A program made the position numbers and the translations under genes. DNA of 37,099 nucleotides, from positions 1 through 37,099 of the IMG/VR virus record IMGVR_UViG_3300036985_002254. One strand, written 5' to 3'. This document shows, in pieces, positions 1,237-36,940 of the stretch (positions within the stretch are counted from its first letter, which is position 1; each line of letters begins with the position of its first letter). Under the pieces are notes generated by a model. That model searched no databases, had not been told where the DNA came from, and saw nothing but the letters and a program-made list of their open reading frames with translations. This DNA comes from a virus.

Positions 1237-1250
1237 TCGCGTTTGAATAA

Positions 1251-2347: not shown

Positions 2348-2360
2348 AAAATTCCTCTTA

Positions 2361-2405
2361 CCCCTTTATTAGGGGCTACGAGAACGACTACGTTTGACCG
2401 TAGCC
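2361..2405 (-). promoter_or_regulatory. Overlapping alternative hairpins before the mini-gene chain
   Basis: In the leftward transcript, just before the ribosome binding site of the 2347 gene, CCCCT (2375-2371) can pair with AGGGG (2365-2361). A longer pairing GGCTACG (2405-2399) with CGTAGCC (2380-2374) uses two of the same bases. A nearer CGTAG (2393-2389) can also pair with the first CTACG. The pairings exclude one another, so this could be a translational switch. Whether it forms is untested. Confidence 0.35.
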
Positions 2406-2474
2406 TTTCCCCACATTAACGCGCATGGAGCGTCATGTGATAGTCGCACGCTCACCCATACACGTATATACGAT

Positions 2475-2772: not shown

Positions 2773-3080
2773 TACGGGAGCATTGACTGTCGCTTTCTGA
2801 CGTGGCTCTGACGTTGAATAGCCCGCGTTCGTTGATTGACGAACACCGACTTCTCAGACGTGGTTGCTCTCGAAGAATCGACGCTGCCCTTTGAATAGCG
2901 AGGGCGATTTGTCAGGCGTTGATTCGACGTTATCGACTTATCGCCACTGGCGTTTAATAACGTCTTATGGTGGCGTGCATTTACGTCATACTCGACGACT
3001 TTCACGACGATAATCTCGTCGTTGCAGTCCTGCTCAACCTCTTGCTCCGTCGCACAGCATCCGAGGATTTCGGTAATCAT
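2772..3080 (-). CDS. 102-residue early protein, basic C-terminal half
   Basis: The ATG at 3080 overlaps the stop of a 16-residue leader ORF by ATGA. The first 40 residues are acidic with three Cys (CCATEQEVEQDC then NDEIIVVKVVEYDV). The rest is basic and Ser/Arg/Gln-rich, ending in RQSHVRKRQSMLP. The change in composition near residue 60 could mean a disordered tail or a frame that is only partly coding. The stop is coupled by TAATG to the broken frame downstream. No family is recognised. Confidence 0.5.
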   Translation of the reverse strand: MITEILGCCATEQEVEQDCNDEIIVVKVVEYDVNARHHKTLLNASGDKSITSNQRLTNRPRYSKGSVDSSRATTSEKSVFVNQRTRAIQRQSHVRKRQSMLP

Positions 3081-3127
3081 GCCGTGCCCATCGCCATTTG
3101 CGGGGCGTTGTGCTGCATCGCAGCCAT
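3077..3127 (-). CDS. 16-residue leaderless leader peptide
   Basis: The ATG lies 19 nt after a TTTAAATA box, so the transcript is expected to start at or within a few bases of it. The peptide is MAAMQHNAPQMAMGTA. It has no SD but feeds by ATGA overlap into the 102-residue gene, as a leader peptide would. The expected length and spacing are the evidence; a shadow reading is possible. Confidence 0.45.
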   Translation of the reverse strand: MAAMQHNAPQMAMGTA

Positions 3128-3146
3128 ACTCTGTTTGTTGCGAAAG

Positions 3147-3161
3147 TATTTAAACCTTCGC
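3147..3161 (-). promoter_or_regulatory. Archaeal promoter: BRE plus TTTAAATA
   Basis: The minus strand reads GCGAAGG followed by TTTAAATA, a good match to the purine-rich BRE plus TATA arrangement. The 14-base core AGGTTTAAATACTT is repeated exactly at the 3510 promoter. A TCCGACGTGAA motif (3163-3173) lies just upstream, and a CCCTTTGAAAGGG inverted repeat (3180-3192) beyond that. Confidence 0.7.
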
Positions 3162-3179
3162 TTTCACGTCGGAAGTCCG

Positions 3180-3192
3180 CCCTTTGAAAGGG
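3180..3192. repeat. Inverted repeat CCCTTTGAAAGGG near promoter
   Basis: Six-base arms flank one central base, about 25 bp upstream of the leftward TATA box at 3147-3154. The position suits an operator or activator site. No regulator can be matched to it. Confidence 0.35.
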
Positions 3193-3292
3193 TTGCTATC
3201 CTTCGCGTTTACTGGTGGTGTGAAGGACGAACCTACACACCTATACCCTCTAACGGTAGTGAGCCGTATTATCGTCAGAGAAAGGGTAGGGA

Positions 3293-3487
3293 TTATCGTC
3301 TTAAGGCTATCCTGCCATGAGCGAACTTATCCCCATTCTCGTACTGTCTGAATACGCTCTCTATTACGTACGTATTTACGTAGCGTACTGCATTAGCGCG
3401 TGTACGTAGGGGAATACGCACGACAGATGGTACGTCGTTAGTCCTCATCTGTCCTGCCTTCTGGTTTTGGTCAGCGATTTTTTGCAT
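3293..3487 (-). CDS. 64-residue basic early protein, leaderless
   Basis: The ATG at 3487 lies 22 nt after a TTTAAATA box, the expected distance for an archaeal leaderless start. The product is basic (segments MQKIADQNQKAGQMRTND, VRIPLRTRANAVRYVNTYV), suggesting contact with nucleic acid. The frame also extends upstream of the TATA box, but that part is G-rich and does not look coding. No family is recognised. Confidence 0.6.
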   Translation of the reverse strand: MQKIADQNQKAGQMRTNDVPSVVRIPLRTRANAVRYVNTYVIESVFRQYENGDKFAHGRIALRR

Positions 3488-3509
3488 GATACCAACTTGG
3501 ACTCGGAAG

Positions 3510-3521
3510 TATTTAAACCTG
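3510..3521 (-). promoter_or_regulatory. Archaeal TATA box TTTAAATA
   Basis: The minus strand has AGGTTTAAATACTT, identical over 14 bases to the promoter at 3147. The start codon at 3487 follows after 22 nt. The upstream element CCGGC is a weaker BRE than that of the other copy. Confidence 0.65.
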
Positions 3522-3822
3522 CCGGTCTCGTCTGAGCCACTGACGTGTCCGACGTGTTTGTCGTCTGAGTCACCCCGAAGCACAGACGGTTTCTCCGACG
3601 AACCTCGGACACCCCGAAGCCCACGTCGAACAAAACCCACTTTCCCACCTGACCACGACGTTCGGTTTTACTCCCTCAGGCGTTACCAGACGGTCACTGA
3701 CGGTGCGCGCCCACCCCCCACCGACGAAGCCCACAGACGAGCCGAACGCGTGCGCGTTACCCTACGCTATGGCGTATGCCTGGAGTTATTTATATTATTA
3801 ATATTTATTTTCCTTATCCCAT
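3522..3822. other. Non-coding divergent control region, left part
   Basis: About 300 bases have no convincing gene on either strand. The minus strand is G-rich, with GTGGGCTTCG repeated near 3621 and 3728. A TCCGACGTG motif lies at 3548-3556. The right end (3783-3815) is strongly AT-rich (runs of TTATTTATATTATTAATATT type), which would melt easily. It separates the leftward early genes from the rightward late genes and could hold operators or a replication origin; that is inference. Confidence 0.5.
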
Positions 3823-3841
3823 AGCATAAGACAATTATGCT
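3823..3841. repeat. Inverted repeat AGCATAA-GACAA-TTATGCT
   Basis: Perfect 7-base arms flank a 5-base loop between the AT-rich stretch and the GC-rich tract. It could be an operator, a hairpin terminator or part of an origin. A copy of TCCGACGTG (3845-3853) follows within four bases. Confidence 0.45.
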
Positions 3842-3860
3842 TTCTCCGACGTGCGTCAGG

Positions 3861-3979
3861 ACGTGCGTGTGTGCGCATGCCCGCCTGTGCGCCCGCCTGT
3901 GTGCGCCTGCGCCCACGCCTGCGCCTGCCTGCGTGTGCGGGTGCGTGTGTGCGCGTATGTGCGCGTATGTGCGCGCGCG
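3861..3979. repeat. GC-rich alternating purine-pyrimidine tract, Z-DNA-prone
   Basis: Positions 3861-3880 and 3941-3979 alternate purine and pyrimidine without a break (20 and 39 bases). Between them lie a 12-base tandem repeat (CCCGCCTGTGCG twice from 3880) and other GCGCCTGC-type repeats. A 10-base unit, GCGCGTATGT, is repeated at 3951 and 3961. Such DNA favours the Z form. The three overlapping plus-strand open frames here are compositional artefacts. The tract sits upstream of the late operon. Confidence 0.75.
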
Positions 3980-4004
3980 AGGCGAAAAATCGGACGCATC
4001 CGGG

Positions 4005-4125
4005 CCTCTATATATATAAGCAGCCCTCTACGCAAAATTTTTCAGAAATTTCAACTCTCCTCCCTCGTGCACGACGTAGATAATATTAACCAATCCATAT
4101 AAATGCAGGGAAAACGTTTAAATAA
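4005..4125 (+). promoter_or_regulatory. Candidate late-operon promoter region
   Basis: Three rightward TATA candidates precede the first late gene: TATATATATAA at 4009-4019, TATAAA within 4095-4103, and GTTTAAATA at 4116-4124 with an upstream GGGAAAAC that resembles a BRE. The last is the best match to the consensus, but it would start transcription about 9 nt inside the 4138 gene. The earlier ones fit better for that gene. A TCGTGCACGA palindrome lies at 4065-4074. Which one is used cannot be told from sequence. Confidence 0.5.
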
Positions 4126-5124: not shown

Positions 5125-6580
5125 AGAGTTTGACACCAAGGATGGCTACGAATACGCCTCCACTGTTCTCCGTATGCGCAACGATCCCATCTGGTTCCTA
5201 AAGGAACACTGTGGGGTCGAACTCTTTCCAGTGCAGGAAGAGATGATGCGGGAGTTCTACCGCAACAAATACAATCCCTCACTGACCCCTTATAAGCACC
5301 TGATACTTGCGCTCGGCATGCGTTCGGGTAAAACAGCCATGAGTGGTATGTTTGGTGCAATCGAGATGATGGACATCTGTACAATCTCAAATCCATCAAA
5401 GCACTACGGCTTACTTAAAGGACAAGGTATCGCGCTTCTCGCTCTTGCCACATCTCTCGATCAGGCATTGGAGGGAGTCTATGGTAATACTTGTAACCTG
5501 CTCGAAGGATCCGACTTCGTACAATCATGGATGGACTTTAAGTTTAAAACTGATACCATCGAGTGCATCGATAAGAACGTCTTCTTTAAGGCGCTCGGAT
5601 CATGGGCATCTACAGCAGTTGGTCGTTCAGCCAAAGCAGTCTTCTTTGATGAACTGGATAACTTCGAGGATACAACCAGCAAACGAGGTGCTGTTGAGGT
5701 TTATAGCCGAGTTATCAAGGCAACTGATACTCTCGGAAGTGATGGTCACACATTTGCTCTGTCGTCGTTAAAATCTCCGACGGGTATTATGATGAACCTC
5801 TGTAAGGATGCAGAGGATGAGAAGCGCCGTTATGGTGATCTTTGTCGCTCACTCGCGTATATTCGTCCTACATGGGAAGTAAATCCTCATTTCACTAAAG
5901 AAGATCTCATGCGTGAACACGAAGGTAACCTCGCAGCATTCTGGCGAGACTTCGGGTGTCAGCCGTCGATCTACAACTCACTCGCATTCCCCAACGGTGT
6001 AGTGCTTGAGCCAATGACGAACGTCTTGCACACGCCACCTATCTCCTGTGATAACCAACCATATCGTGTGATGGCAATCGACCCAGCAGTTAAGAAGGAT
6101 GCCTTTGGTATCGCCTGCGGTTATCGGGCTGCATCTGGTAAGATTATTATTGATGGTGTGCACAAGTTCACCAAGAAAGAAGGAAACATCATGATTATGC
6201 CGTCGGAAATCGACGCTTATCTCAATCGTGTTCTCCCAACATTAAATATTAAAGTATTCTTATATGATACGTGGATGTACCCTCATATCCTTGAGAACGT
6301 CATGAAGCGTGGAATTAAATTAGAACAGCACATTGTAAACCATAAGAGTTACGAAGCATGGCTGGATCTCGAATCAAACAACCGTCTCTCCGTTGTTTAT
6401 AGCGACGATCTTCGTCTTGAATGCGATAAACTCGTCGTATTCCCTGGAGCAAAGCCTAAGGTCGATCACCCTAGCACTGGTTCAAAGGATATGGCTGATT
6501 GTTGTGCCAATTGTATAGAGTATCTTCATGATAATAAAATATCAACCGCTCCAAAAATATCAGGACTTAGGGGATTCTAA
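5096..6580 (+). CDS. terL: Terminase large subunit (packaging ATPase and nuclease)
   Basis: This 494-residue protein shows the full terminase plan. The ATPase has Walker A GMRSGKT (residues 74-80), Walker B AVFFDELD (181-188) and a coupling motif ALSSLKSP (221-228). The RNase H-like nuclease has D329 in VMAIDPAV, D391 in FLYDTW, and D465/D468 in SKDMAD. It docks on the portal, pumps DNA into the head and cuts the concatemer. The ATG at 5096 follows AGAAAGAAC, and the gene ends in TAATG shared with the HNH gene behind it. Confidence 0.97.
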   Translation: MAVKTKISREEFDTKDGYEYASTVLRMRNDPIWFLKEHCGVELFPVQEEMMREFYRNKYNPSLTPYKHLILALGMRSGKTAMSGMFGAIEMMDICTISNPSKHYGLLKGQGIALLALATSLDQALEGVYGNTCNLLEGSDFVQSWMDFKFKTDTIECIDKNVFFKALGSWASTAVGRSAKAVFFDELDNFEDTTSKRGAVEVYSRVIKATDTLGSDGHTFALSSLKSPTGIMMNLCKDAEDEKRRYGDLCRSLAYIRPTWEVNPHFTKEDLMREHEGNLAAFWRDFGCQPSIYNSLAFPNGVVLEPMTNVLHTPPISCDNQPYRVMAIDPAVKKDAFGIACGYRAASGKIIIDGVHKFTKKEGNIMIMPSEIDAYLNRVLPTLNIKVFLYDTWMYPHILENVMKRGIKLEQHIVNHKSYEAWLDLESNNRLSVVYSDDLRLECDKLVVFPGAKPKVDHPSTGSKDMADCCANCIEYLHDNKISTAPKISGLRGF

Positions 6581-7032
6581 TGAGAAAGCGAGCAACCAGT
6601 TGCACAAAATGTGGAGCAGAGTTAGATAATAAAAATTATTCAATTTGTAAGAAATGTCTAGCAGATTATGGAAGGGATTATAGACTCGCTAGATTTTCAG
6701 ACAAATCACGTAGAGTACGTGCATGGGCAATCTCTACATTGGGAGATCATAAACGAAAAGGATTTAATGTATTGATTACAGTTGATGAATTATGCAAATA
6801 TGCTATGACAATAGATAACTGTGAATATACAGATGAACCATTAAACTGGTTTTCACAGGGAAGACCCACTGCAAATTCTCCTAGTTTGGATAGATTGAAT
6901 AATGAAGATGTATTAAATATTGATAATATAAGAATAATCTCATATAAGATGAATGCAATGAAGCGTGATCTTACATTTAAAGATTATATAAAACATTGTA
7001 AATTTATGGTAGATAAGTTCGGAGATAGTTAA
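6580..7032 (+). CDS. Degenerate HNH endonuclease after terL
   Basis: This 150-residue protein keeps the N-terminal zinc knuckle (C8/C11 and C23/C26) and the active-site-like stretch SPSLDRLNN. However, the two pairs of Cys that hold the treble clef in its paralogues are changed: CPxCG is CEYTD here, and CxxCNxxK is SYKMNAMK. It is AT-rich compared with terL and is joined to it by TAATG. It was probably a homing endonuclease; activity is doubtful unless the fold is held without zinc. Confidence 0.8.
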   Translation: MRKRATSCTKCGAELDNKNYSICKKCLADYGRDYRLARFSDKSRRVRAWAISTLGDHKRKGFNVLITVDELCKYAMTIDNCEYTDEPLNWFSQGRPTANSPSLDRLNNEDVLNIDNIRIISYKMNAMKRDLTFKDYIKHCKFMVDKFGDS

Positions 7033-11215: not shown

Positions 11216-11737
11216 ATGAAGTGTATTCATTGTAATGAAACTAAAGAATTGTCAGAGTTTTATAATTCTGATTTAAAGTGTAGCAATTATGTGTGTAAAA
11301 GTTGTCGAAGTAAAATTTCAAGACATAATTATACAATAAACAAGAATGCAAACCCAGACTTACATAGAGAAATGAGAAAGGAAATTTATAATAGATGGAA
11401 ACAGAAAAATCCTAAATATAGTTGGGCGCATACAACGAGAGACAAACATAAAAGAAATGGATATGATGTAAAGTTTACTACAAAGGAATTAGTAAATTTT
11501 ATTAAAGATATTAAAGTATGTCCTTATTGTGGAACTGAATTTGATTTTTCAGTAAATCCAAATAAATCATTGAGTCAAAGACCTACTTTAGATAGAATTG
11601 ATAATGAACAGATTATGACATTAAAAAATATACAAGTGTTATGTCATAGTTGTAATACAATGAAGGGTCAATTCCCACATAATAAATTTTTAGATAAAAT
11701 TAAACTAATTTTAAGTAGGTGTAGTTATGGCGATTGA
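11216..11737 (+). CDS. HNH endonuclease after capsid gene
   Basis: This 173-residue protein has an N-terminal knuckle (C3/C6, C27/C30), then CPYCG, the active-site stretch RPTLDRIDN and CHSCNTMKGQ. All zinc ligands are intact. The gene is much more AT-rich than the capsid gene and uses A/T-ending codons, a sign of separate origin. It has almost no ribosome binding site and starts three bases after the T run, so expression is probably low. Its last 11 bases overlap the next gene. Confidence 0.88.
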   Translation: MKCIHCNETKELSEFYNSDLKCSNYVCKSCRSKISRHNYTINKNANPDLHREMRKEIYNRWKQKNPKYSWAHTTRDKHKRNGYDVKFTTKELVNFIKDIKVCPYCGTEFDFSVNPNKSLSQRPTLDRIDNEQIMTLKNIQVLCHSCNTMKGQFPHNKFLDKIKLILSRCSYGD

Positions 11738-22089: not shown

Positions 22090-22737
22090 ATGCCACAACG
22101 AGTAGAACCTTATACTAAATTACTCATTCATGGTGATGGGTTGGTTGATGACTATGTTATTAAAGATCAGTGTGGAAACTCCATCACCAACACTTCTGTA
22201 ACTCTATCAGCAACACAGAAGAAGTTCGGTAAATATTCAATGTATTTTACTGGAACTTCGTATATAACACTGCCAAATATAAATTTGGGAAGTGGAGATT
22301 GGACAATTTCATATTGGATTTACTGGAATTCTGCCTCTACTTATAAAACTGTGTTTATGTTGGGAGGTTTTAGTGCTGGTACAACTATAGGAGTACAATC
22401 TGGTAATGGAACAGTCAATCAAATAGTATATGTAGGCGGAACAGCAAAGTTCACAGAATCTGGTTCTCCAACAACTGCAACGTGGTATCATTATGCAATA
22501 GTTAAATCAGGAAGCACAATTACAATGTATAGAAATGGTACATCTGTCGGAAGTGCATCAGATTCTACAAATTTTGCTACAACTCAATATAATGCAATTG
22601 GGTATGATGTACAGTCATCAGCATATCCGTTGCCCGCATATATGACAGACTTTCAAATTGTGGTTGGTAAAGCAATTTGGACTTCTGCATTCACACCACC
22701 AGACTATTCTCCAAAAGGACGTAAGGGGTGGTACTAA
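22090..22737 (+). CDS. LamG/concanavalin-like protein 1
   Basis: This 215-residue protein has the Laminin-G-3 pattern: GDWTISYWIYW, then TWYHYAIVKSG, and YRNGTSVGSA at the strand pair that closes the fold. Such domains bind glycans. AAGGTGAT precedes the ATG. The stop joins the next start by TAATG. It is the first of three in tandem. Confidence 0.8.
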   Translation: MPQRVEPYTKLLIHGDGLVDDYVIKDQCGNSITNTSVTLSATQKKFGKYSMYFTGTSYITLPNINLGSGDWTISYWIYWNSASTYKTVFMLGGFSAGTTIGVQSGNGTVNQIVYVGGTAKFTESGSPTTATWYHYAIVKSGSTITMYRNGTSVGSASDSTNFATTQYNAIGYDVQSSAYPLPAYMTDFQIVVGKAIWTSAFTPPDYSPKGRKGWY

Positions 22738-23414
22738 TGTCACTGTTTGAAAATTGCGTATTCTATATGGATGGAACAGTGAATAACTCCGATGCATATG
22801 GTCACACGGTAACAGCAACAGCCACGCCAACTAATGATACTGACAGAATCGGGTTAAATCATTCTCTTGCATATAATGGTTCTACACAATATTTGACAGT
22901 TACTGCCAATTCAGACTTTACTTTATCTGGAGATTTTACTCTTGCTGTGTGGTGTAAAACCACCGTTTATACACAAGATACTCATTTCCGTCGTATTATA
23001 AGTGGTGCTGCTGTAGACAATAATGCAGGATCACTTTCATTAACATTATATAATGGAGCCGCATCTCCAGATGTTAGCGTTTATACGAATTCACTTATTC
23101 TTACTGGTAATATTAGCATTGCTGATGGAAACTGGCATTTAGTTGTTTTGAATAGATCTGGAACTGATACTAAACTGTGGGTAGACGGAGTTCAATCTGG
23201 TTCGACTAAAACTTCTGATACTACTAACTATAATCGTTGGGCTACAATTAATTTTCATATAGGAGCCGCAGATAATACTCCACTAGGAAGATTTAACGGT
23301 AGTATAGGAGAGGTAATTATTACTAAATCATATGTAGATGCAAAGGCGTTATATAACATTACCAAAAACAAATACATCTATCCATTCCAGCGTGAAGAAA
23401 GAGGGTGCTACTGA
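22737..23414 (+). CDS. LamG/concanavalin-like protein 2
   Basis: This 225-residue protein has the same plan: SGDFTLAVWCKTT, then GNWHLVVLNRSG and LWVDGVQSGS. The ATG at 22737 is preferred to the upstream GTG because of TAATG coupling and GGGGTGG upstream. It differs greatly in sequence from its neighbours, so the triplication is old or the genes were acquired separately. Confidence 0.78.
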   Translation: MSLFENCVFYMDGTVNNSDAYGHTVTATATPTNDTDRIGLNHSLAYNGSTQYLTVTANSDFTLSGDFTLAVWCKTTVYTQDTHFRRIISGAAVDNNAGSLSLTLYNGAASPDVSVYTNSLILTGNISIADGNWHLVVLNRSGTDTKLWVDGVQSGSTKTSDTTNYNRWATINFHIGAADNTPLGRFNGSIGEVIITKSYVDAKALYNITKNKYIYPFQREERGCY

Positions 23415-24088
23415 TGGTTCTTAATAAGATTAATCTAGATGATTGGGGTATTGGTAGTGCAAGTGATTATTGTAAATTATTTTTAAGTACTGGAAATTCT
23501 CCAACAGATTTATCTGGAAACGCTTCAACTATTACAGCAACTTCAATGATATCATCAATAACAAAAAATGGATCTATAGTTTTACAAACAGATAATACAA
23601 ATGCACATTATATAACATCGGTTGAAGGAACTGCTGATAATTATAATATCTCATCTGGAGCATTTACAATATCATTTTGGGTAAAAGTTAATACAGAAAG
23701 AGCCAATGGATTATTTTTATCTTTAAATATAACTGATTATACATCTGGAAATTCTAAATTAAAAATAGACTCTGGTGCGGCAGCAACATCGCTTGTTATA
23801 ACTGGTGGTAGTGCATCTACACAAACTGTTGTTTCAAGATCAACTAATTGGACACATTATGTATTATCTGCGAGCAGTGCTACATCAATATTACTTTACG
23901 TGAATGGAGTAGTTAATAGTTCTGCTTTTTCAGTAACATCTATAGCAGACGCAGATAGAATCGTAATTGGCTCATTTTCAGCAGGAAATCCAACATCAGC
24001 AAGTTTTAAAGATGTTGCTTTATTTAAAGGAATCGCTTTAACTTCAGAACAAATTCGTGCACTTTACAATGCAACTTATATAGAATAA
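23414..24088 (+). CDS. LamG/concanavalin-like protein 3
   Basis: This 224-residue protein has SGAFTISFWVKVN, then NWTHYVLSASS and LLYVNGVVNSSA. The ATG at 23414 overlaps the stop of the preceding gene by TGATG, with GAGGGTG upstream. It is more AT-rich than the two other LamG genes. Probably a glycan-binding tail protein. Confidence 0.76.
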   Translation: MVLNKINLDDWGIGSASDYCKLFLSTGNSPTDLSGNASTITATSMISSITKNGSIVLQTDNTNAHYITSVEGTADNYNISSGAFTISFWVKVNTERANGLFLSLNITDYTSGNSKLKIDSGAAATSLVITGGSASTQTVVSRSTNWTHYVLSASSATSILLYVNGVVNSSAFSVTSIADADRIVIGSFSAGNPTSASFKDVALFKGIALTSEQIRALYNATYIE

Positions 24089-25533: not shown

Positions 25534-26289
25534 ATGGCAATAGACGGATTAGGAAGGGTAATCATCTCCAATAAAATTGATGAGCATGGGCGCATGGTCT
25601 TTGCTGGAAACTTTAATGAATTTGGTCATTACGCGAAGGCAAGTCAATTTGTTACGATTGTCCTGACTGAAACCGTTAGAGTGGTTGCATCAATGGGTAA
25701 TAAGAAGTTTACTCGCAACCTCGTAGAACCAGTTCATGTTGCAGTAAATGTTCTGCGAACCTTTAATAAGACTCTGGTAGAAACTGTGCATGTGACAATA
25801 AACACTTCCAAGACTTTGACACGCACTTGTACTGAAAGGGTGTTAATAAGTATTGGTAGCACACGCAAATTGACAAGAGAGTTTGTTGAGCATGTTCATA
25901 TTGCAGATATCTTCAAAAGGTATTTCAGATACATATTTGATGAAACAGTAAAAGTCAATGCAAATATGGGTAATACAAAATTCACTAGGAACATTATAGT
26001 TCCAGTGCATGTGTCCGATAGTATCACGAGGTCATTTGAACGAGTATTCACTGAATCAGTTCATGTAGCAGACTCTCTTATACGAAAACGGATGTTCGAG
26101 TTTGTTGAAACTGTCAAGGTGTCAGTATTCACTACACGTTCATTAACGCGAACATATGTTCAGCATGTGTATGTATCTACGACAATGTATAATACCGTGC
26201 GATTTGTTATGAAGAAATTATTCTCAAAGGCAAAGGGATTATATCGTGGAGTAGTTCTTAAAATCGAAGACGGACGTGATGTGAAATGA
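25534..26289 (+). CDS. 18-residue repeat protein, two copies of a five-repeat unit
   Basis: After a 40-residue leader, ten repeats of the type ExVHVxxxxxxxRTxxRxF start near residues 46, 65, 83, 101, 119, 137, 156, 174, 192 and 210. Spacing is 18, or 19 where MGNKKFTRN or MGNTKFTRN occurs (repeats 1 and 6). This makes the block of five at 46-136 a duplicate of 137-227. The alternating pattern suggests a beta-solenoid or stacked beta repeats, as in large surface proteins with SDSLTR-type repeats. It is probably a fibre or adhesin. Confidence 0.75.
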   Translation: MAIDGLGRVIISNKIDEHGRMVFAGNFNEFGHYAKASQFVTIVLTETVRVVASMGNKKFTRNLVEPVHVAVNVLRTFNKTLVETVHVTINTSKTLTRTCTERVLISIGSTRKLTREFVEHVHIADIFKRYFRYIFDETVKVNANMGNTKFTRNIIVPVHVSDSITRSFERVFTESVHVADSLIRKRMFEFVETVKVSVFTTRSLTRTYVQHVYVSTTMYNTVRFVMKKLFSKAKGLYRGVVLKIEDGRDVK

Positions 26290-26621
26290 GAATTAAACAA
26301 GGAGATTTATTTCCTTTTGAATATGTTCTGACATATGATGATAGCACTCCAATTGATCTCTCTGGAGCGACCGTAACCATAACAACTATCCTCGATGAGG
26401 CTTCTTCACCAACAGTTGATGCGGAAACTTGTTCAATAACTGATGCCATTAACGGGGTAATAAGATACTCCTGGCAATCTGGAGAAACCGATGTTACCGG
26501 AATGTATCGTATCGAATTTGTGATAACTTTCAATAGTGGATCCACACTCACGGTTCCCTCTGGGGATGTTTTATGGCTTTTAATCGTGGCTTCGACGCAT
26601 CCTCCAGTGGTGACACCATGA
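26286..26621 (+). CDS. BppU_N-like tail protein
   Basis: This 111-residue protein has the pattern PIDLSGATVTITTIL, then a segment around NGVIRYSWQSGETDVTGMYR and FNSGSTLTVPSGD. That is the order seen in the N-terminal Ig-like domain of baseplate upper proteins (BppU_N). Such domains anchor receptor-binding or fibre proteins to the tail. ATGA overlaps link it to both neighbours. Confidence 0.75.
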   Translation: MRIKQGDLFPFEYVLTYDDSTPIDLSGATVTITTILDEASSPTVDAETCSITDAINGVIRYSWQSGETDVTGMYRIEFVITFNSGSTLTVPSGDVLWLLIVASTHPPVVTP

Positions 26622-27037
26622 GTAAAATTTTTAATAAGGACTCATCTACTCTTGATACTATAAGAGTAATGACTGAGAAATTAAATAAGAAAGAAAAGGA
26701 GTTGGTGGCGGCTAATAAGCGATTTCGCGTCTTATTTGATCACGCGCCACTCGGTATTATCGTAACATCAAATCGCGTAATTGTAACAGCAAACAGTTAT
26801 ATGTATAATACACTCGGATATACATCCGAAGAACTCATAGGAAAACCTACGAGGATGCTATACGCTACAGAGGATGAATATCAAAAGGTAGGTATCCTTC
26901 TTACCATGCACCAAGAGTTCTCTTGTCGTGTTCATATGATAAGGGCGGACGGAGTAATAAAAGAATACACACTCAAAGTAACCAAAATCTCTACTGACGA
27001 GAATGTGGCTAGTATTTATATAGAGATGAGGGAATAA
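26618..27037 (+). CDS. PAS-domain protein
   Basis: This 139-residue protein begins with a helical, coiled-coil-like lead (MTEKLNKKEKELVAANKRF), then a full PAS fold: FDHAPLGIIVTS, NSYMYNTLGYTSEELIGKP and RADGVIKEYTLKVTKIS. No kinase, HTH or cyclase follows. The ATG at 26618 overlaps the preceding stop (ATGA); an upstream ATG at 26573 would overlap too far. PAS domains sense small ligands, redox or light and mediate dimerisation. It was probably taken from a host signalling protein. Confidence 0.88.
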   Translation: MSKIFNKDSSTLDTIRVMTEKLNKKEKELVAANKRFRVLFDHAPLGIIVTSNRVIVTANSYMYNTLGYTSEELIGKPTRMLYATEDEYQKVGILLTMHQEFSCRVHMIRADGVIKEYTLKVTKISTDENVASIYIEMRE

Positions 27038-27039
27038 AG

Positions 27040-27306
27040 ATGACTTCCGATGGAGATTGGTCTGAATGGAGAAACCACGTTCTAAAAGAGTTAGAAAGGC
27101 AGAACGATAATAATGAGGCTCTCAATGACAAACTCGACACACTCAACTCTCGACTCGATACGTTTGAAAAGACTTGTCTCCAAAAAGAGGGTGACCAAAA
27201 GGTCAATAATGCGGTGACAGCCCTGAAAATTTATTATATGGATGCAGTGATAGGTGGTGCATCCGCAATTTTAGTTTTGGGAGTGCAATACTTACTCAGT
27301 CATTAG
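27040..27306 (+). CDS. XhlA/holin-like membrane protein
   Basis: This 88-residue protein has a coiled coil (residues 10-45), a short link and one C-terminal transmembrane helix (AVIGGASAILVLGVQYLL). The plan matches XhlA-type proteins that accompany holins. It ends the late operon and overlaps the convergent gene by 11 bases. Membrane permeabilisation at lysis is the likely job; proof would need expression data. Confidence 0.65.
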   Translation: MTSDGDWSEWRNHVLKELERQNDNNEALNDKLDTLNSRLDTFEKTCLQKEGDQKVNNAVTALKIYYMDAVIGGASAILVLGVQYLLSH

Positions 27307-27763
27307 CGCAATAAGTATCCTCCACAATATCCACATGCTTTTCTAAACTGAAATGCTTATTCAATTTATATATCTGCGTGAGAATCTCTCGCGCTGCTTC
27401 TTTTATGTTAGTTCTATCGAACTCACATTCGTTGATGATGCGATTTAGCGCAGCGAGCAGTTTGCTCATGGCGATAGCATCCTCTTCCATCTTGTATTGC
27501 TTAGCGATGCGTCGGTATTCAGCCTTAACGGTGTTAAGTTGCTTCTCGATAATCTTCCGATCTTCGTCGATAGCATCGAGTTTTTGTTCTCGTTCTTTAA
27601 TCTGTGATTCAAGATAGTCAAGAATAAGTGTGTTCTCGAACTCCTCGTCCTGCGAAATCTTACTTAATGCTCGTTCAAGAACTTCGCTGATGTTGATTCC
27701 ATTCTTCTTGGCGTTCTGATACTTATCTGTATCAACGTAAACACTGTGCTTCTCCCGAACCAT
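27296..27763 (-). CDS. RHH/CcdA-like N-terminus with long coiled coil
   Basis: This 155-residue protein starts with SVYVDTDKYQNAKKNGINIS, a pattern like CcdA-type or other ribbon-helix-helix DNA-binding N-termini, followed by EVLERAL. Residues 55-100 form a coiled coil, and the rest is helical. It may be a DNA-binding regulator at the end of the replication operon. It is coupled to the upstream gene by TAATG. Confidence 0.6.
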   Translation of the reverse strand: MVREKHSVYVDTDKYQNAKKNGINISEVLERALSKISQDEEFENTLILDYLESQIKEREQKLDAIDEDRKIIEKQLNTVKAEYRRIAKQYKMEEDAIAMSKLLAALNRIINECEFDRTNIKEAAREILTQIYKLNKHFSLEKHVDIVEDTYCAND

Positions 27764-28560: not shown

Positions 28561-29687
28561 TATTTCACCAACCTAACCTTGTTACCTGCTCTTTCGATCA
28601 TATTGAAACGAACCATGTCATTCAGGACTGAGTTCATCTGCTCTGCGTTCCAACCGACCATCGTACACTCGGAAGCAAGCATCTGCGTGTTTGTTGCGCC
28701 ACCGAGAATCTTAATCATATTCTTCATCAGACCAAGATCGACACCGAGGTTAATCTCAAGTCTCCATTCCTTCTCACGGTTGAGAAGTTCCTTCAGTTCA
28801 GTGTTGATGGTGAGTTCCATCTTCTTCTTTGCGCCGAACTTTGCAAGATTATATCCGAGGATTAACTGATCGTATAACTGCGCCTCGAAACTAAAGATTC
28901 CCATTCGCTCGTAGAGGTCAAGAATCTCATCGGGATATTCAATCCTATCAATTGTGTTCATACTCGCTACGAAACTCTTATTCATATTCTGAATCTTGAG
29001 CATCTCGGATGGATCCGGCTTAATGTTCTTTGCATTGTGCCGTGCTTCCATGATCATCTTATTATCCTTCCGTGTAGGCATGAAAAGCATGTAACAGAAC
29101 CTACGACCAAGACCAGACGACATATCAATCTTGGCTGGCTGAACTCCTGTCCAAAGAGTAAGGCGAGTATCGTACTCGTGCATACCCGAGGCCAGACGCT
29201 TAACTACGTGACCGCCATCGAGAATGGTAAGCAACTGCGAGTCCATCTGATTATTAGTCGATGACTTCATCGCTTGGGTGATGCCACTGAACTCATCAAT
29301 GAGCATCATACCCTCGTTGTAAATTGCTGCTGCGCCTGGAACAAACCTCGGCTCACCAAAACCATCCTTACCAATCGTTCCAACAAGACCTGCTTCGGTC
29401 ATGGACTGCTCGTATCCCACTTTGATTCCAGTGTTGTTGAAAATTCCCACAGTCGGATCTCCAGCCATATTAGTTAAGTAATATGATTTCATGAATCCGG
29501 CTGGACTCACGAAGAGGATAGGAAGACTGCTATTAAGAATCTTCTTTCCTTCATAAAAAATCTTCCTTTTATTATTCATGAGATTGAAAACGTGCGTTGC
29601 ATATGAAATTGTATAGAATGGAGCAAACGTCTCATATTTATACGCCTTGCGATCTTTCATTTCTTCGAGAACCATATCATATATCAT
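28560..29687 (-). CDS. mcm: MCM-like AAA+ ATPase core (replicative helicase)
   Basis: This 375-residue protein has a Walker A variant SPAGFMKS (61-68), the MCM-style stretch PGAAAIYNEGMMLIDEFSGI (118-136 region) containing Walker B, a beta-hairpin-like HVVKRLASG, a sensor strand RLTLWTG and an arginine finger GLGRRF (192-197). A winged-helix-like C-terminus follows (EQMNSVLNDMVRFNMIERAG). MCM unwinds DNA at archaeal forks. The N-terminal DNA-binding domain of normal MCM (about 250 residues) is absent. GAGGAG precedes the ATG, which overlaps the LAGLIDADG gene (ATGA). Confidence 0.82.
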   Translation of the reverse strand: MIYDMVLEEMKDRKAYKYETFAPFYTISYATHVFNLMNNKRKIFYEGKKILNSSLPILFVSPAGFMKSYYLTNMAGDPTVGIFNNTGIKVGYEQSMTEAGLVGTIGKDGFGEPRFVPGAAAIYNEGMMLIDEFSGITQAMKSSTNNQMDSQLLTILDGGHVVKRLASGMHEYDTRLTLWTGVQPAKIDMSSGLGRRFCYMLFMPTRKDNKMIMEARHNAKNIKPDPSEMLKIQNMNKSFVASMNTIDRIEYPDEILDLYERMGIFSFEAQLYDQLILGYNLAKFGAKKKMELTINTELKELLNREKEWRLEINLGVDLGLMKNMIKILGGATNTQMLASECTMVGWNAEQMNSVLNDMVRFNMIERAGNKVRLVK

Positions 29688-30082
29688 TTTAAACTCCTCA
29701 TTTCATTATAAATATCTTCTCTATCTTTGAGATAAGTGATCGGCACTCTACCACCATATATAATTGTATTCTGGAAAAACAATCCCAACATTAATTCCTC
29801 TCGTTTAATTATTGAATATGGTAAGATTTCACAAATAACCATCGCTGCTTCTTTACCACGAACCGTTAATGTATAAATCGGTTTATCTTTGTAGGTTTTA
29901 CTTTCAAAGATGCTACCAACTTCAAATATATTCTTAATTTTAATAATAGCATCGAGATTTGTATTAGTGACACTTATCATTAACCCATAATAAGTATTCT
30001 TTGTTCGAGTCATCTTATGTATATGAACACAACCTTCACCATCAATTAATCCTGCTGCCCACGCAATATCAGTTTCTTTCAT
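29684..30082 (-). CDS. LAGLIDADG homing endonuclease, single motif
   Basis: The motif AAGLIDGEGCVHI lies near the start, so the 132-residue protein would act as a dimer. The ATG at 30082 with GGTGAT upstream is preferred to the ATG at 30139, which overlaps the nuclease gene. It ends ATGA into the helicase gene. It sits between two replication genes as a free-standing gene; no intein features are seen. Confidence 0.88.
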   Translation of the reverse strand: MKETDIAWAAGLIDGEGCVHIHKMTRTKNTYYGLMISVTNTNLDAIIKIKNIFEVGSIFESKTYKDKPIYTLTVRGKEAAMVICEILPYSIIKREELMLGLFFQNTIIYGGRVPITYLKDREDIYNEMRSLK

Positions 30083-30128
30083 ACTATCACCATAGTTTAA
30101 TAAGCGAACAAAAATCGCTGAGTGGTAA

Positions 30129-30755
30129 TTATACCACATTAAGCATTGTTAAAATCTTTTTTGATTTAACTGCCCCAATACCTTTAGTCTTTGCGAGTTC
30201 ACTGGATGTTATTTTTGCTATCTTTGTGAGTGAACCATATTTTTGATGAATCTCTATATACTGAGGAATAGTAATACCAAGATACCGTGCGATTAACGCC
30301 TCTGGATGAGCCTTTGTGGGAACAGAAAGATTGCCTTCATCTACATTCTCCATGTATCCCACCATCACATTCAATGCGTCTTTCTCGTCCTCAATCCAGA
30401 TAATCTCAAAGTTATATCGACAAGCGATATCATCAATGCACGAGTAGATAATCTTCTCGTTGATGAACTTCTTATACCTGCGCATGGATTTGACATACTC
30501 GGATAAGGATCCAGTAATAAGGAGTACAAGTTTCATATCATCGAATTGCGCCATCCGATTAACCTGTGACCAGATGCGCTTGTCCATGATGCTCCCATAG
30601 AGATCTCCTATCTTCTTGCGTTCACAAAGAACTTTAGTGCTTCGGTAATCTCCCTCTTTCAGAGTAGCCAACTGAAACTTCGTCTTTGGAAAAGTCTTCT
30701 GTAAATACTTAATTATTGTTTTGGGTTCGCGTGTATCCACGTCAATTGAAGTCAT
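30129..30755 (-). CDS. XPF/Hef-type ERCC4 nuclease with HhH tail
   Basis: This 208-residue protein has DTREP at residue 7, then GDYRSTKVLCERKKIGDL (35-52), the GDx-ERKxxxD metal site of ERCC4 nucleases (D36, E45, R46, K47, D51). The C-terminal helix-hairpin-helix (KTKGIGAVKSKKIL, about 190-203) binds DNA. Such archaeal enzymes cut branched or forked DNA, often with PCNA. No helicase domain is attached. It overlaps the upstream gene by ATGA. Confidence 0.92.
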   Translation of the reverse strand: MTSIDVDTREPKTIIKYLQKTFPKTKFQLATLKEGDYRSTKVLCERKKIGDLYGSIMDKRIWSQVNRMAQFDDMKLVLLITGSLSEYVKSMRRYKKFINEKIIYSCIDDIACRYNFEIIWIEDEKDALNVMVGYMENVDEGNLSVPTKAHPEALIARYLGITIPQYIEIHQKYGSLTKIAKITSSELAKTKGIGAVKSKKILTMLNVV

Positions 30756-31160: not shown

Positions 31161-31474
31161 CGAGTCCACCCAGTTATTGTTGTTCTTATATCATTAACAA
31201 TGGACTGAGGCTCTAACTTTCTCTCATATTTATCTATATTATTTTTTATTGTAGATAATGCAGAGTCTAATTCATTGCGATCAGGAAGTATGAATACTTC
31301 ACCACGTGGAACTTCTGTACTTCTTAATGCAATACAATATGATGTACCATGTGCATTTACAGACATACAATCCTCATCTTCACCTCTAGCAGTTCCAATT
31401 ACTATTTTCCACCCTCTATATTCTCCCAACTCCGTTTGTACGGAATCTATTGTTTCTGGGTATCCATTCATCAT
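31157..31474 (-). CDS. 105-residue protein, function unknown
   Basis: This alpha/beta protein has paired strands (GWKIVIGTARGEDEDCMSV, SYCIALRSTEVPRGEVFIL) and a helical C-terminus. It is overlapped by ATGA on both sides. No family is recognised. Confidence 0.7.
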   Translation of the reverse strand: MMNGYPETIDSVQTELGEYRGWKIVIGTARGEDEDCMSVNAHGTSYCIALRSTEVPRGEVFILPDRNELDSALSTIKNNIDKYERKLEPQSIVNDIRTTITGWTR

Positions 31475-32070
31475 CGCACCTTTCCGTCTCCCAGATAGTA
31501 ATTACCATCTGCGAAGATGATAACATTCGCCAAGATGAGTTCCTCTACAAGTCCATAGAGAACATTATCTAACTGTGCGTGGACGTTACCGTGCTCGCTG
31601 GGTGAACTACATACGAACAAATTCTTCGGGTGGTTATCTTTCTTATTGAGGTTGATGTGGTGAACGTGCTCCCAAGGTTTGAGTTTTCTGCCAGCCACAA
31701 TCTCTGCCACCTGTCTGTAGTTACGAATCGCTCCTGTAGACATAAAATCATATTCATTATACGGAACCTCGTGTGTTAATCCTTTAATCAACTTCGACTT
31801 CATCTTACGAACGGATGTAGTCGTTCTACCCATCTTCTCTGCGATCTCTTTATTTGGGAGAGTCATCAATGATTTCAGCATACGAATATTCGCATACGTC
31901 CAGAAGCGCTTATTAGTAACGGTACGACAACCATACTTTGAGAGTCCAAGTTTTTTAACCCTCGACTCTACTGCTTCCTCACTATGACCGACCCATTTTG
32001 CCAACTCATATGAGTTCATCTCAAGATAATGATTCTGTAAAAATATATCTTGAACTTCAGTCCACTTCAT
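31471..32070 (-). CDS. HNH endonuclease with Myb/HTH-like N-terminus
   Basis: This 199-residue protein contains two helix-turn-helix-like segments (WTEVQDIFLQNHYLEMNSYE and NKEIAEKMGRTTTSVRKMKS). They resemble SANT/Myb-like DNA-binding modules. An HNH domain follows (EHVHHINLNKKDNHPKNLFV, then SEHGNVH). It differs from the DRxxN-type HNH group here. It is probably a free-standing homing endonuclease. The stop is coupled to the next gene by ATGA. Confidence 0.85.
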   Translation of the reverse strand: MKWTEVQDIFLQNHYLEMNSYELAKWVGHSEEAVESRVKKLGLSKYGCRTVTNKRFWTYANIRMLKSLMTLPNKEIAEKMGRTTTSVRKMKSKLIKGLTHEVPYNEYDFMSTGAIRNYRQVAEIVAGRKLKPWEHVHHINLNKKDNHPKNLFVCSSPSEHGNVHAQLDNVLYGLVEELILANVIIFADGNYYLGDGKVR

Positions 32071-33123: not shown

Positions 33124-33257
33124 TACTCCTCGTAATCTTCACAATTCTCACGCTTCATTGTAAGGAGAAGTTCATGACCTCTCCCACAACGATACGCATC
33201 ATCTTCTGGATCTCCTTCATCTGCATGAATACACATCCAGCAATCATTTACGAGCAC
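33123..33257 (-). CDS. 44-residue zinc-knuckle-like mini-protein
   Basis: The GTG at 33257 lies inside the reductase tail. The product has CWMC (6-9), H11, CGRGH (24-28) and C39, typical of a small zinc fold. Its stop overlaps the next ATG (TAATG). The codon use of the frame and the cysteine pattern argue that it is real. Confidence 0.55.
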   Translation of the reverse strand: MLVNDCWMCIHADEGDPEDDAYRCGRGHELLLTMKRENCEDYEE

Positions 33258-35404
33258 TTGCTCTTGCCGCAATTCAAACATACTTGGCAACCTTCCTGCA
33301 TGACAAACTTTGGGTTATCACAACACTGTTCCTGTTGATTCTGTGGTGCTACTGGAATCTTATTAGATGCTGCGAGAACTGGAACACTATTGTTCTGCTC
33401 AATTATGCACGCAAGCCTATTAACAGTGTTATTAATGCACTTTCCAGTAATATCAGCGCACGACTTTCCACCAGACTGCTTATTGTTCATTGCAGTGTTA
33501 CACTTAACACGCCCGAACTGCTTAACGTAACTTTCAGCAGGCGTTCCACAGTCAAGTCCGACTGAAATGGATCGTCCAATTGCTGCCATGTTTCCTGTAC
33601 AACCGCCAGTTCCATCTCCTTCAACGAAGACTTTCGTAGGTGATTCTCCATCGTGTCCAACGATAACGTAGAATTTCCCACATCCAGACCTGACTTTGTA
33701 GATGTATGCTGGAGTAATACTTTCATAAAATTCGTCCTCAACCCAATCAATGATGTTATCAGTGACGGTAATATGATCAGTTTCCATCTTCTTCTGGCTT
33801 GATGTTTCCGTCACGCTCGCCTTCGTCAAACATAACACTTCCTCATCCCTTGAACCTGAACGATAGATGGTAAGACCTTTGCAGTTGGATTTCCAAGCAA
33901 GGATGATCGCCTTTGCAATATCTTCACGAGTTGCCTCTTTCGGCATATTGATTGTCTTACTAACGGCATTGTTTACATGCTTCTGGAACGATGCCTGCAT
34001 CTTGATATGATCCTGATACGATATATCCATTGCGCCACGGAAGAGTTTCTTGAAATCCTCTGGAAGCCAATCAATATCTTGTATAGTTCCTTTCTCCATA
34101 ACGTGTTTTACAACATCATGGTAGAGATTCATATCTCCTTCTCTCTCACAGATAATCTTGAGTTCTGCATCAAACTGTGGGTGAACTACGACCCTCTCAC
34201 CAGTAGTATCCTTACGGGTGTACGCCCATGCGAACACTGGCTCGATACCAGATGATACTCCGGCGAGAATACTAATCGTTCCAGTTGGCGCGATAGTAGT
34301 CCTAGTTGAATTTTTTGGGTTCCGCATATCTCCTGAAAGATGACAAGAGGCAACATAAGCGTCACCATCAATGTAACTCATAAGTTTTTCACCAAGAGAG
34401 AATGCTCGCTCATCATCGTAAGGGATCCTCATCTTGAGAAGCATGTCATGGAAACCCATTACGCCAAGACCAATCTTACGAGTTCTCTTTGTAGCCGTCT
34501 CAATTTCTTCCAGTGGATACTTATTAGCATCTATCACAGCATCTAAGAAGCGAACAGCAGCATACGTGGTTAGATATAAACGATTGAAATCAATCTCTCC
34601 ATCCGGAAGAACAAAGTTTGCGAGATTAATACTTCCAAGATTACAAGATTCATTTGGAAGAAGAGGCTGCTCACCACACGGATTGGTTGCTACCATATCG
34701 CCGAGTTCTGGGTTGGGGTTATCTCTGTTGATGGTGTCTTTAAAGAGAACTCCTGGCTCTCCATTCTGGTAAATACCTTCGACGATTTCTTTAAACACAT
34801 CATCGTAATCAGAATTACCACGAGGATAAGTAGTTGAGATCATCTTCATGAATTTGTCATCAAGCATAACCGACAGATTGAAATTCTTAATCTTACCCTC
34901 GGTGCGTTTACACTTGATGAACTTAAGAATCTCTGGGTGAGTGTATTCGAGAACGCCCATGTTGGCTCCTCTACGTTTGCCACCCTGCTTGATTGCATTA
35001 GTAGCAGCGTCAAACACTTCCATGAATGAAACTACTCCAGATGCAACTCCGTTTGTGGATTTAACTGTACTTCCTTCTGCACGAAGTGAAGTGAAAGAAA
35101 ATCCTGTGCCACCACCAGTCTTATGAATAATCGCTGCGTTCTTCACGGCATCGAATATACTGGGAATTGAATCCTCGACGGGAAGCACGAAGCATGCAGA
35201 TAACTGACCTGATGCTGTTCCTGCGTTCATCACCGTTGGTGAATTTGGAATGAAATCCTTATTACCAATGAGATCACGCATATCTGAAATATCTTCGGCT
35301 GTTTTACAAACTGCTCCGACAATACGCTCCGTAATATCTTTCCAGTTGTTTTCGCCATTGGCGCAATACCTTTCTTTGATTAATCTATCCTCATATTCTC
35401 CCAT
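33248..35404 (-). CDS. nrdJ: Class II (adenosylcobalamin) ribonucleotide reductase
   Basis: This 718-residue enzyme makes deoxyribonucleotides without oxygen or iron. Motifs are NSPTVMNAG (54-62), C71 of the redox pair, GGGTGFSF (97-104), catalytic NPCGEQP (N241, C243, E245), C254, and a C-terminal CQVCLNCGKSKC thiol tail for re-reduction. GGAG lies 6 nt before the ATG at 35404; a TTG at 35416 is less likely. The start lies directly after a 40-residue gene. It would supply dNTPs for viral replication if the host provides cobalamin. Confidence 0.95.
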   Translation of the reverse strand: MGEYEDRLIKERYCANGENNWKDITERIVGAVCKTAEDISDMRDLIGNKDFIPNSPTVMNAGTASGQLSACFVLPVEDSIPSIFDAVKNAAIIHKTGGGTGFSFTSLRAEGSTVKSTNGVASGVVSFMEVFDAATNAIKQGGKRRGANMGVLEYTHPEILKFIKCKRTEGKIKNFNLSVMLDDKFMKMISTTYPRGNSDYDDVFKEIVEGIYQNGEPGVLFKDTINRDNPNPELGDMVATNPCGEQPLLPNESCNLGSINLANFVLPDGEIDFNRLYLTTYAAVRFLDAVIDANKYPLEEIETATKRTRKIGLGVMGFHDMLLKMRIPYDDERAFSLGEKLMSYIDGDAYVASCHLSGDMRNPKNSTRTTIAPTGTISILAGVSSGIEPVFAWAYTRKDTTGERVVVHPQFDAELKIICEREGDMNLYHDVVKHVMEKGTIQDIDWLPEDFKKLFRGAMDISYQDHIKMQASFQKHVNNAVSKTINMPKEATREDIAKAIILAWKSNCKGLTIYRSGSRDEEVLCLTKASVTETSSQKKMETDHITVTDNIIDWVEDEFYESITPAYIYKVRSGCGKFYVIVGHDGESPTKVFVEGDGTGGCTGNMAAIGRSISVGLDCGTPAESYVKQFGRVKCNTAMNNKQSGGKSCADITGKCINNTVNRLACIIEQNNSVPVLAASNKIPVAPQNQQEQCCDNPKFVMQEGCQVCLNCGKSKCS

Positions 35405-35405
35405 G

Positions 35406-35528
35406 TTACTCTCCAAACCAATCGAAATCTTTTAAGAAGTCTAAATCTTCTTGCGTCATCATATTGTCTTCAACTATCTCATGATATCCCAATGTTTCAT
35501 AGATGAAAACAAAGAGTGGGTCTAACAT
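35406..35528 (-). CDS. 40-residue acidic mini-protein
   Basis: The ATG at 35528 gives a 40-residue acidic product (ETLGYHEIVEDNMMTQEDLD) whose stop lies one base before the reductase ATG. It is probably a coupled leader or a small acidic regulator of the reductase. No family is recognised. Confidence 0.6.
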   Translation of the reverse strand: MLDPLFVFIYETLGYHEIVEDNMMTQEDLDFLKDFDWFGE

Positions 35529-35788: not shown

Positions 35789-36507
35789 AATTCTACTTCC
35801 TCAGGTTTACACATTCCACAGTACGAAAACATCACCATCGAACACGAGCGCGGGAACACATTCATTTCAAGTGCGTCGCGGAGTGCTGCAATCTGTCTAT
35901 CTACTGTCGTCATACTTCGCTTCGGGATATCATAAGTCTCCGCCTTCTGCAACACCGGATTGATGATACGGCATGTTGTCGCTGGAAGTGTCGGATTAAC
36001 TTCATCCCAGAGTTTCTTATAAAGTGCTGACTGCAACTTAATAGACGCTGGTTTAATCTTCGCTCCTGTTTTATATTCAACAATACAAACGCTTTTCTTA
36101 TCCTCGTTCAAATCTACACGGTCAATAAAACCAGTGAGATACTGAACTGGACTTTTAAGTTTCTTCTCTACGCAGAGAGGATACCAAAGATCGCGTCCAA
36201 GTTTCTTTAACTGTTCATCCTCGTATTCAAGGAACCACCGAGCATTATCTTTCTCTGCTTCCGTGAATGTCTTTGGGATACATTCTTCCCAACTTCCTAC
36301 AGTAAGCATATCGTTATGAAGAATAAACTTCTCCGCCCAATCATGGAATCTCGTACCGAGTTCCATCGCTGGTGAAGGAGGTGTTCGTATCTTCTTGATA
36401 TAACGCAGATAGAACTGTCGAGGACAGATGTTGAAAGTTTCCAACTGACTCTTTGATATATACCAAGTAGCTGCATCAATATTATGATTTTCAAGTTTTT
36501 CCGTCAT
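35785..36507 (-). CDS. Cas4/RecB-like PD-(D/E)XK nuclease with Fe-S cysteines
   Basis: This 240-residue protein has all the parts of the Cas4/AddB group: C28 (CPRQFYLRY), H55 (GTRFHDW), D129 (GFIDRVD), E144-x-K146 (VEYKTG), the QxxxY-like Q159/Y163, and C222, C230, C233 (SC.. then YCGMC), which with C28 would hold a 4Fe-4S cluster. Such enzymes resect DNA ends. There is no CRISPR array near, so a role in viral replication or recombination is likely. GTGAG precedes the ATG. Confidence 0.9.
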   Translation of the reverse strand: MTEKLENHNIDAATWYISKSQLETFNICPRQFYLRYIKKIRTPPSPAMELGTRFHDWAEKFILHNDMLTVGSWEECIPKTFTEAEKDNARWFLEYEDEQLKKLGRDLWYPLCVEKKLKSPVQYLTGFIDRVDLNEDKKSVCIVEYKTGAKIKPASIKLQSALYKKLWDEVNPTLPATTCRIINPVLQKAETYDIPKRSMTTVDRQIAALRDALEMNVFPRSCSMVMFSYCGMCKPEEVEL

Positions 36508-36940
36508 GTCTACTCACTACATTTCTACAATATTCAACAAACTCCTTAAACGTTCTATTGGATTTAGTGGTGTTGCATTTATTGCAAATAATCCAAATAT
36601 TATTTTCCCGTATGGCAGACTCATTATTGATTCTATCAAGAGTTTTATCTTTATCTGAAATAAATTTGGTTCCACAAATAGGACACTCTTTGACAGATGT
36701 AAACAAATTCTCAACGAATTTTATAGAGACACAGATATTATATCCACAATCTCTATGGTGTCTAATAGAATCTTTAGATTTAAACTGCATTAAATTATTT
36801 TTTCTATGTACACGTTGCCGTTGCACATTACATAGTTTACATCTAGTATCATATCCATCTGTACGACTTGAATCTTTTCCGAAATCAGATAAATCTTTAA
36901 TTTCTGAGCAGATAGAGCATCGTCTACGAGTATCAGTCAT
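36491..36940 (-). CDS. HNH endonuclease between PCNA and Cas4-like nuclease
   Basis: This 149-residue protein has C8/C11 and C34/C37 in the N-terminal knuckle, CPICGTKF, the active-site stretch KTLDRINN and ICNKCNTTKSN. All ligands are intact. It is AT-rich, overlaps the PCNA stop by 8 bases and the nuclease gene by 17. It belongs to the same group as the genes at 329, 6580 and 11216. Confidence 0.88.
   Translation of the reverse strand: MTDTRRRCSICSEIKDLSDFGKDSSRTDGYDTRCKLCNVQRQRVHRKNNLMQFKSKDSIRHHRDCGYNICVSIKFVENLFTSVKECPICGTKFISDKDKTLDRINNESAIRENNIWIICNKCNTTKSNRTFKEFVEYCRNVVSRHDGKT

Follow-up and report, generated by a model that had tools for sequence, protein, structure and literature searches.

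A stand-alone PAS protein encoded at the end of a viral late operon, next to a coiled-coil membrane gene

RESULTS

A PAS gene and a coiled-coil membrane gene close the late operon

We analyzed the IMG/VR virus contig IMGVR_UViG_3300036985_002254 over its whole length of 37,099 bases (the window). Its main genes lie on the plus strand between about 4.1 and 27.3 kb and on the minus strand beyond, and the GC skew switches near 27.3 kb, where the gene direction also switches. The long plus-strand run, the late operon, closes with a PAS gene, followed by a gene for a protein with a coiled coil and a transmembrane (TM) segment (Table 1).

Table 1. Positions of the PAS gene, its neighbors and other features of the window
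Feature	Position	Strand	Description
BppU_N-like protein	26286..26621	+	111 aa; Pfam BppU_N 25.5 bits vs cut-off 23.1; phrog_1084 8.7e-10
GGTGA, ribosome-binding-like stretch	26609..26613	+	just 5' of the PAS start; read by eye
PAS protein, stand-alone	26618..27037	+	139 aa; helix 6-42 and a single PAS domain; stops ahead of the DIT motif
Coiled-coil protein (27040 protein)	27040..27306	+	88 aa; one C-terminal TM segment, residues 69-87; final late gene
CcdA-like N-terminus, then coiled coil	27296-27763	-	24.3 bits vs cut-off 22.4
Region almost without long genes	1-4100
G/C/T-rich repeat tract	near 3850-3980
Three adjoining proteins with Laminin_G_3	22090-24088
Protein of short repeats	25534-26289		251 aa
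Ribonucleotide reductase	33248-35416		with TSCPD domain
HNH-like and LAGLIDADG endonuclease genes	221-856, 6580-7032, 11216-11737, 31471-32070, 36491-36940, 29684-30139

The start codon of the PAS gene (26618-26620) overlaps the TGA of the upstream BppU_N-like gene (26619-26621) as ATGA, and a gap of 2 bases separates the PAS stop codon from the downstream gene. The start at 26618 was favored over an in-frame ATG at 26573, because the GGTGA stretch lies just before 26618. An earlier note, made from the sequence, had placed the PAS gene in a late operon with an ATGA overlap upstream, and this position was found as claimed. The same note had called the downstream gene holin-like and its product XhlA-like. 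The shape is indeed alike, since a simple script found one hydrophobic segment as well as heptad-rich sequence, but no holin or XhlA match was obtained in Pfam or PHROGs at E ≤ 1. The gene is therefore holin-like by shape only.

Other features around the operon were also recorded. A gene with a CcdA-like N-terminus is convergent with the coil/TM gene. The 251-aa protein consists of short repeats (e.g. ETVHV... LTR.F) of about 17 residues each by eye, and matched no family over a cut-off. Each of three adjoining proteins carries a Laminin_G_3 (ConA-like) domain, and they are likely receptor-binding or fibre parts.

The protein belongs to the PAS domain superfamily

We searched the 139-aa protein against family profiles. 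The PAS domain was placed above the cut-offs by Pfam PAS_9 (residues 46-130, E=2.9e-9, 37.6 bits vs cut-off 27), PAS (residues 35-106, E=2.6e-7, 31.1 bits vs 22.6) and PAS_8 (residues 35-79, E=7.3e-7, 29.3 bits vs 21.8), and by NCBIfam sensory_box TIGR00229 (residues 33-133, 40.7 bits vs 22.9). This confirms that 26618-27037 encodes a stand-alone PAS protein, as the earlier note had proposed; the note would have given up this proposal had a profile search been unable to put about residues 35-135 in the PAS fold, and this did not happen. At E ≤ 1, PAS_9 matches the record at a single place, 26753-27007. The lack of an output domain was likewise borne out: no further domain follows PAS, and HATPase and receiver domains were found nowhere in the window record. 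Relatives read DIT(E) past the last PAS strand, and the window protein terminates just before that motif.

The best PDB sequence match was the PAS domain of a LuxR-family regulator, 3mqo (E=1.9e-4, residues 36-95). When aligned to YtvA (2pr5), the window protein reads GKPTRML where YtvA has GKNCRFL, whose Cys is the flavin-binding cysteine of LOV photoreceptors; the window protein is therefore not a typical LOV photoreceptor. A PHROGs search with the protein gave no real match (best E=0.063).

We also modeled the structure. Modeling from the single sequence gave a poor result (pLDDT 38.3). A shallow 9-sequence alignment (A5), to which eight PAS domains from the viral loci L117, L118, L119 and L121 had been added, gave a model with pLDDT 85.5, in which, after a long helix at residues 6-42, strands and helices succeed one another as in PAS domains; the last ~10 residues are less sure. 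The helix agrees with the coiled-coil lead described in the earlier note. Foldseek returned 416 PDB matches at E ≤ 0.001, and the 50 listed of these were PAS or LOV proteins. VIA-align to 3olo gave Z 14.8 and an rmsd of 1.6 over 110 residues, and structural comparison with 3mqo gave Z 13.4 and an rmsd of 2.5 over 106 residues. The structure prediction that the note had suggested as a check thus shows the PAS fold, but because the alignment consisted entirely of PAS domains, the model is not independent, and the identification rests on the profile matches.

The ATGA coupling to the BppU_N-like gene, where the tail genes end, would suit a structural or assembly protein whose PAS fold has been put to a new use, in the virion or as a tail chaperone, beside the baseplate-like gene. 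The sequence, however, is that of sensory PAS domains, and we regard such a role as very unlikely.

The closest cellular matches lie in sensor proteins and LuxR-type regulators

Among cellular proteins, the nearest relatives of the window protein are the PAS portions of sensors and of LuxR-type regulators. Matches occurred in 13/20 bacterial genomes at E ≤ 0.001 and in 23 plasmid records at E ≤ 0.01, and the cellular PAS stretches obtained share about 25-42% identity with the window protein. Single-protein scans of viral or genome contigs found no relative, nor did tblastn against INPHARED at E ≤ 0.01; distant PAS genes were missed by those scans, because the queries were exact short peptides or one sequence. 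With the terminase, 27040, MCM-like and capsid genes as scan queries, no related virus was found.

These matches bear on two other explanations. In one, the protein would be a decoy in host signaling, pairing with a host sensor kinase via its helix and PAS surface and blocking or biasing that kinase, with the neighboring gene unrelated. The nearness to PAS domains of cellular sensors and LuxR-type regulators fits this explanation, as does the fact that the helix which precedes PAS in kinases is kept while the output domain is absent. At this level of identity, however, no particular kinase is mimicked, and the gene is located among late rather than early genes; we consider a decoy unlikely. 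In the other, the gene would be a passenger, a piece of a host sensor gene that was acquired recently and does little or nothing. That it is a single gene with no output domain and no close relative in the collections searched would agree with this. On the other hand, the ORF is intact, is translationally coupled to the gene before it and lies only 2 bases from the gene after it, and its composition is like that of its neighbors (GC 0.369; codon score -3.95 vs -3.96 for both adjoining genes), so that a passenger seems to us even less likely than a decoy.

Replication-related genes suggest an archaeal host

An ERCC4 match of 64.2 bits was found in the window; among 14 control genomes, ERCC4 was present only in the 4 archaea. 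A further protein is MCM-like (22.3 bits, just under the cut-off of 23.3). Together, these two sequence matches suggest an archaeal host for a tailed virus, of which the terminase, portal and capsid gave weak matches only.

Several other genes of the window were noted. A 216-residue piece of the ribonucleotide reductase is 50-60% identical to bacterial enzymes (among the matches listed, 80 loci), although further genes of the window look archaeal. Several HNH-like genes, recognized by eye and in one case weakly backed by Pfam, are interspersed among other genes, as is a LAGLIDADG endonuclease. The region of the first 4.1 kb holds two similar AAGTATTTAAACC stretches that look like an archaeal promoter box by eye. 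A tRNA-Phe (AAA) called by ARAGORN at 2648-2724 was unsupported by Rfam.

PAS genes recur beside coil/TM genes in other viruses

An alignment-based scan of IMG/VR yielded five loci (L117-L121), and a DNA pattern for GY[ST]xEExxGK yielded 58 loci. With a profile built from alignment A1, PAS was found in 46 of these 58, and 12 had no convincing match. Complete ORFs of 130-175 aa were present at seven of the 46 PAS loci (L162, L141, L148, L160, L174, L129 and L147); the remaining PAS loci mostly hold longer proteins or genes running off the available stretch. Pfam found PAS in all nine proteins submitted; five of these (L131, L145, L154, L158 and L130) also carry a kinase ATPase domain. Several short phage proteins in BFVD carry the name PAS domain. 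Stand-alone PAS proteins are thus not unique to the window virus.

We observed coil/TM genes beside several of these PAS genes. At L141, a 108-aa gene with a coil and a C-terminal TM segment is followed by a 131-aa stand-alone PAS gene, a 93-aa one-TM gene and then DUF5675. At L148, a 130-aa TM-coil gene is joined through an ATGA overlap to a 149-aa stand-alone PAS gene, which is followed by a receiver protein. L119 encodes a receiver-PAS-PAS protein and then a 169-aa coil-TM-coil protein, and L117 a coil-TM-coil protein, a receiver and a receiver-PAS-kinase, preceded by a weak Rz-like spanin match. The PAS neighbor at L138 is a 119-aa TM-coil gene. A kinship of the 27040 protein with the partner at L117 was unconvincing (E=0.004 over 30 coil residues).

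This pairing was noticed before it was tested, so the following counts are post hoc, and the coil and TM rules were crude scripts. A partner was defined as a protein of ≤200 aa with a heptad-rich stretch and a single hydrophobic segment, encoded no more than two same-strand genes away. Input to the script was the window, L117, L119, L121 and 57 of the 58 pattern loci; L118 and L120 stayed out, and so did L146, because it shares its contig with L118. Such a neighbor was present for 6/19 distinct PAS genes, compared with 29/546 control ORFs (other ORFs of ≥100 aa from the same loci; Fisher 5.5e-4, or 2.9e-3 without the window). Clustering at 40% identity reduced the 19 PAS genes to 14 lineages, six of them with a partner. 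Under this strict rule 13/19 PAS genes had no partner, including the stand-alone ones of L129, L160 and L174. A relaxed count of 10/19 was set aside, as it repeats one lineage (L131, L139, L145 and L159).

These results indicate that the PAS/coil-TM pairing recurs in other viruses, which also argues against the passenger explanation. Two observations count against reading the window genes as a pair: the same PAS/27040 pair was not found in any close relative, and most viral relatives use kinase and receiver domains, both of which the window lacks.

Some viral PAS genes lie near wall-degrading genes

A marine group of loci shares the order PAS-kinase, receiver, and coil with two TM segments. 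This order was seen in L131, L136, L169, L154, L158, L134, L153, L139, L145 and L159, of 13 loci listed; the receiver assignment has Pfam confirmation in L131 and was made by eye in the other loci. The cassettes lie at 3604-5809 in L131, 6021-8648 in L153, 7247-9455 in L136 and 1083-3612 in L154, among others. Phage_lysozyme directly precedes the PAS-kinase in L130 and L153, and DUF5675 with a small TM protein does so in L131. A peptidoglycan-binding protein follows the cassette in L134 and L153, and at L162 a lysozyme lies 423 bases from the stand-alone PAS gene. The response regulator of the L131 cassette had no match at E ≤ 1e-4 in INPHARED (50,697 phage records).

We then counted four wall families (Phage_lysozyme, DUF5675, PG_binding_1 and Glyco_hydro_108) in 50 PAS records, namely the window, L117, L119, L120, L121 and 45 of the 58 pattern loci; L146 and the 12 loci without a convincing PAS match were left out. 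At least one family was present in 24/50 records and none of the four in 26/50. In 17 of the 24 records, PAS lay ≤5 kb from a wall gene, against 8.9 expected under uniform placement, and in G034, G048, G051, G056 and G065 the distance was 19 to 29 kb. Counting one record per lineage left 3/5 at ≤5 kb (combined p=0.04); the association of viral PAS genes with wall-degrading genes is therefore only suggestive. The window record itself holds none of the four families, and its 27040 gene matches no holin or XhlA model; both points count against a role of its PAS gene in egress. The idea of the earlier note that the PAS protein tunes lysis timing is thus favored in part and indirectly, by the recurrence of other viruses' PAS genes beside coil/TM genes and often near wall-degrading genes, and disfavored by the window's own gene content.

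Cellulophaga phages encode PAS-like candidates between tail genes and endolysin

A fold search of BFVD with Foldseek returned proteins of phages phi19:1 and phi18:3 (rmsd 10-11). These are probably phi19:1 gp108 and phi18:3 gp090, since the entries S0A2B2 and R9ZZL0 were tied to gp090 and gp108 by matching lengths, not accessions. Both genes (phrog_10199 / phrog_31932) sit between tail genes and endolysin; the phi18:3 gene listing covered 50 of 71 kb. By tblastn, the two families were found in 24 and 7 records, all from Cellulophaga phages.

Five genomes were inspected (phi38:2, phi18:3, phi19:1, Nekkels_1 and Ingeline_1). The PAS-like gene overlaps an L-alanoyl-D-glutamate peptidase gene in phi38:2, and it is followed by the endolysin after 569 bases in phi18:3, by a lysozyme after about 1.5 kb in phi19:1 and Nekkels_1, and by a protein resembling DUF5675 by eye in Ingeline_1. 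The Nekkels and Ingeline paper describes the Nekkels GH19 enzyme as surrounded by potential holins, antiholins and a spanin (PMC8776804).

Pfam gave no match for the two PAS-like proteins tested, and hhalign gave the family a probability of 3.6%, or 0.2% with the window PAS protein; a PDB match was not obtained either. As PAS proteins, the family is a Foldseek-based candidate and a weak lead. Many virion genes of phi18:3 and phi19:1 carry an MS/MS note and the PAS-like candidates do not, which argues weakly against a structural role.

DISCUSSION

Taking into account the gene order and the neighbors in other viruses, we tentatively propose a two-gene sensor, PAS plus membrane anchor, that acts at egress, a reading that we hold possible but still somewhat doubtful. 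The PAS protein would be a cytosolic sensor which, lacking its own output domain, acts via a partner protein. The likeliest partner would be the 27040 protein, with its small coiled coil and C-terminal membrane anchor, and the helix ahead of PAS would dimerize or pair with the 27040 coil. The pair would be produced late, at the time of the virion proteins; by sensing a small molecule or the infected cell's state, it would help set the time or manner of viral exit. The analysis shows the PAS domain, the architecture, the order of the genes and the recurring PAS/coil-TM pairing, whereas we infer the contact of the two proteins, the membrane topology, the ligand and the egress role.

On a broader view, bacterial and archaeal tailed viruses may share an egress module of PAS and membrane coil, sometimes with kinase and receiver, of which the window would hold a minimal two-gene form, free of phosphorelay and acting by direct contact, in an archaeal virus. 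We think this extension rather unlikely.

Phage lysis is usually viewed as a clock set by holins, and very little is known of how archaeal viruses time their exit. A sensor within the late operon, if true, would make viral exit respond to the cell. The pairing also yields a short list of genes open to experiment, among them candidates in Cellulophaga phages that can be cultured. In the literature searched, the PAS statements found together with archaeal viruses concern a host kinase, and for PAS domains with holin, phage or endolysin no paper on a phage PAS gene was found by title or abstract.

Compared with known systems, the PAS domain of 3mqo is part of a transcription factor, whereas the window PAS stands alone. 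The T4 antiholin RI, also small and virus-encoded, adjusts lysis time to a sensed condition, as is proposed here, but it has no PAS domain and is periplasmic. The Cellulophaga family, with a hydrophobic stretch, a helix and a PAS-like part and with a place between tail genes and endolysin, is a comparable case; its PAS likeness, unlike that of the window protein, comes from Foldseek, with no Pfam match and a weak profile comparison. The marine cassette (L131, L136, L153, L154, L158, L134 and L145) likewise combines PAS with a coiled-coil membrane gene in one run, often beside lysozyme, DUF5675 or peptidoglycan-binding genes. It differs in its histidine kinase, receiver and two-TM partner, for which no sequence relation to the partner in the window was shown. 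Finally, two papers describe VqmA of Vibrio phage VP882 as a phage PAS receptor which, on binding an autoinducer of the host, switches the phage to its lytic program (PMC8284805, PMC12802170), a precedent in favor of a PAS receptor that acts on lysis. VqmA and the window protein are alike in being virus-encoded PAS proteins; the 139-aa window protein ends without a domain after PAS, whereas VqmA has a DNA-binding domain and acts on the lysis-lysogeny switch.
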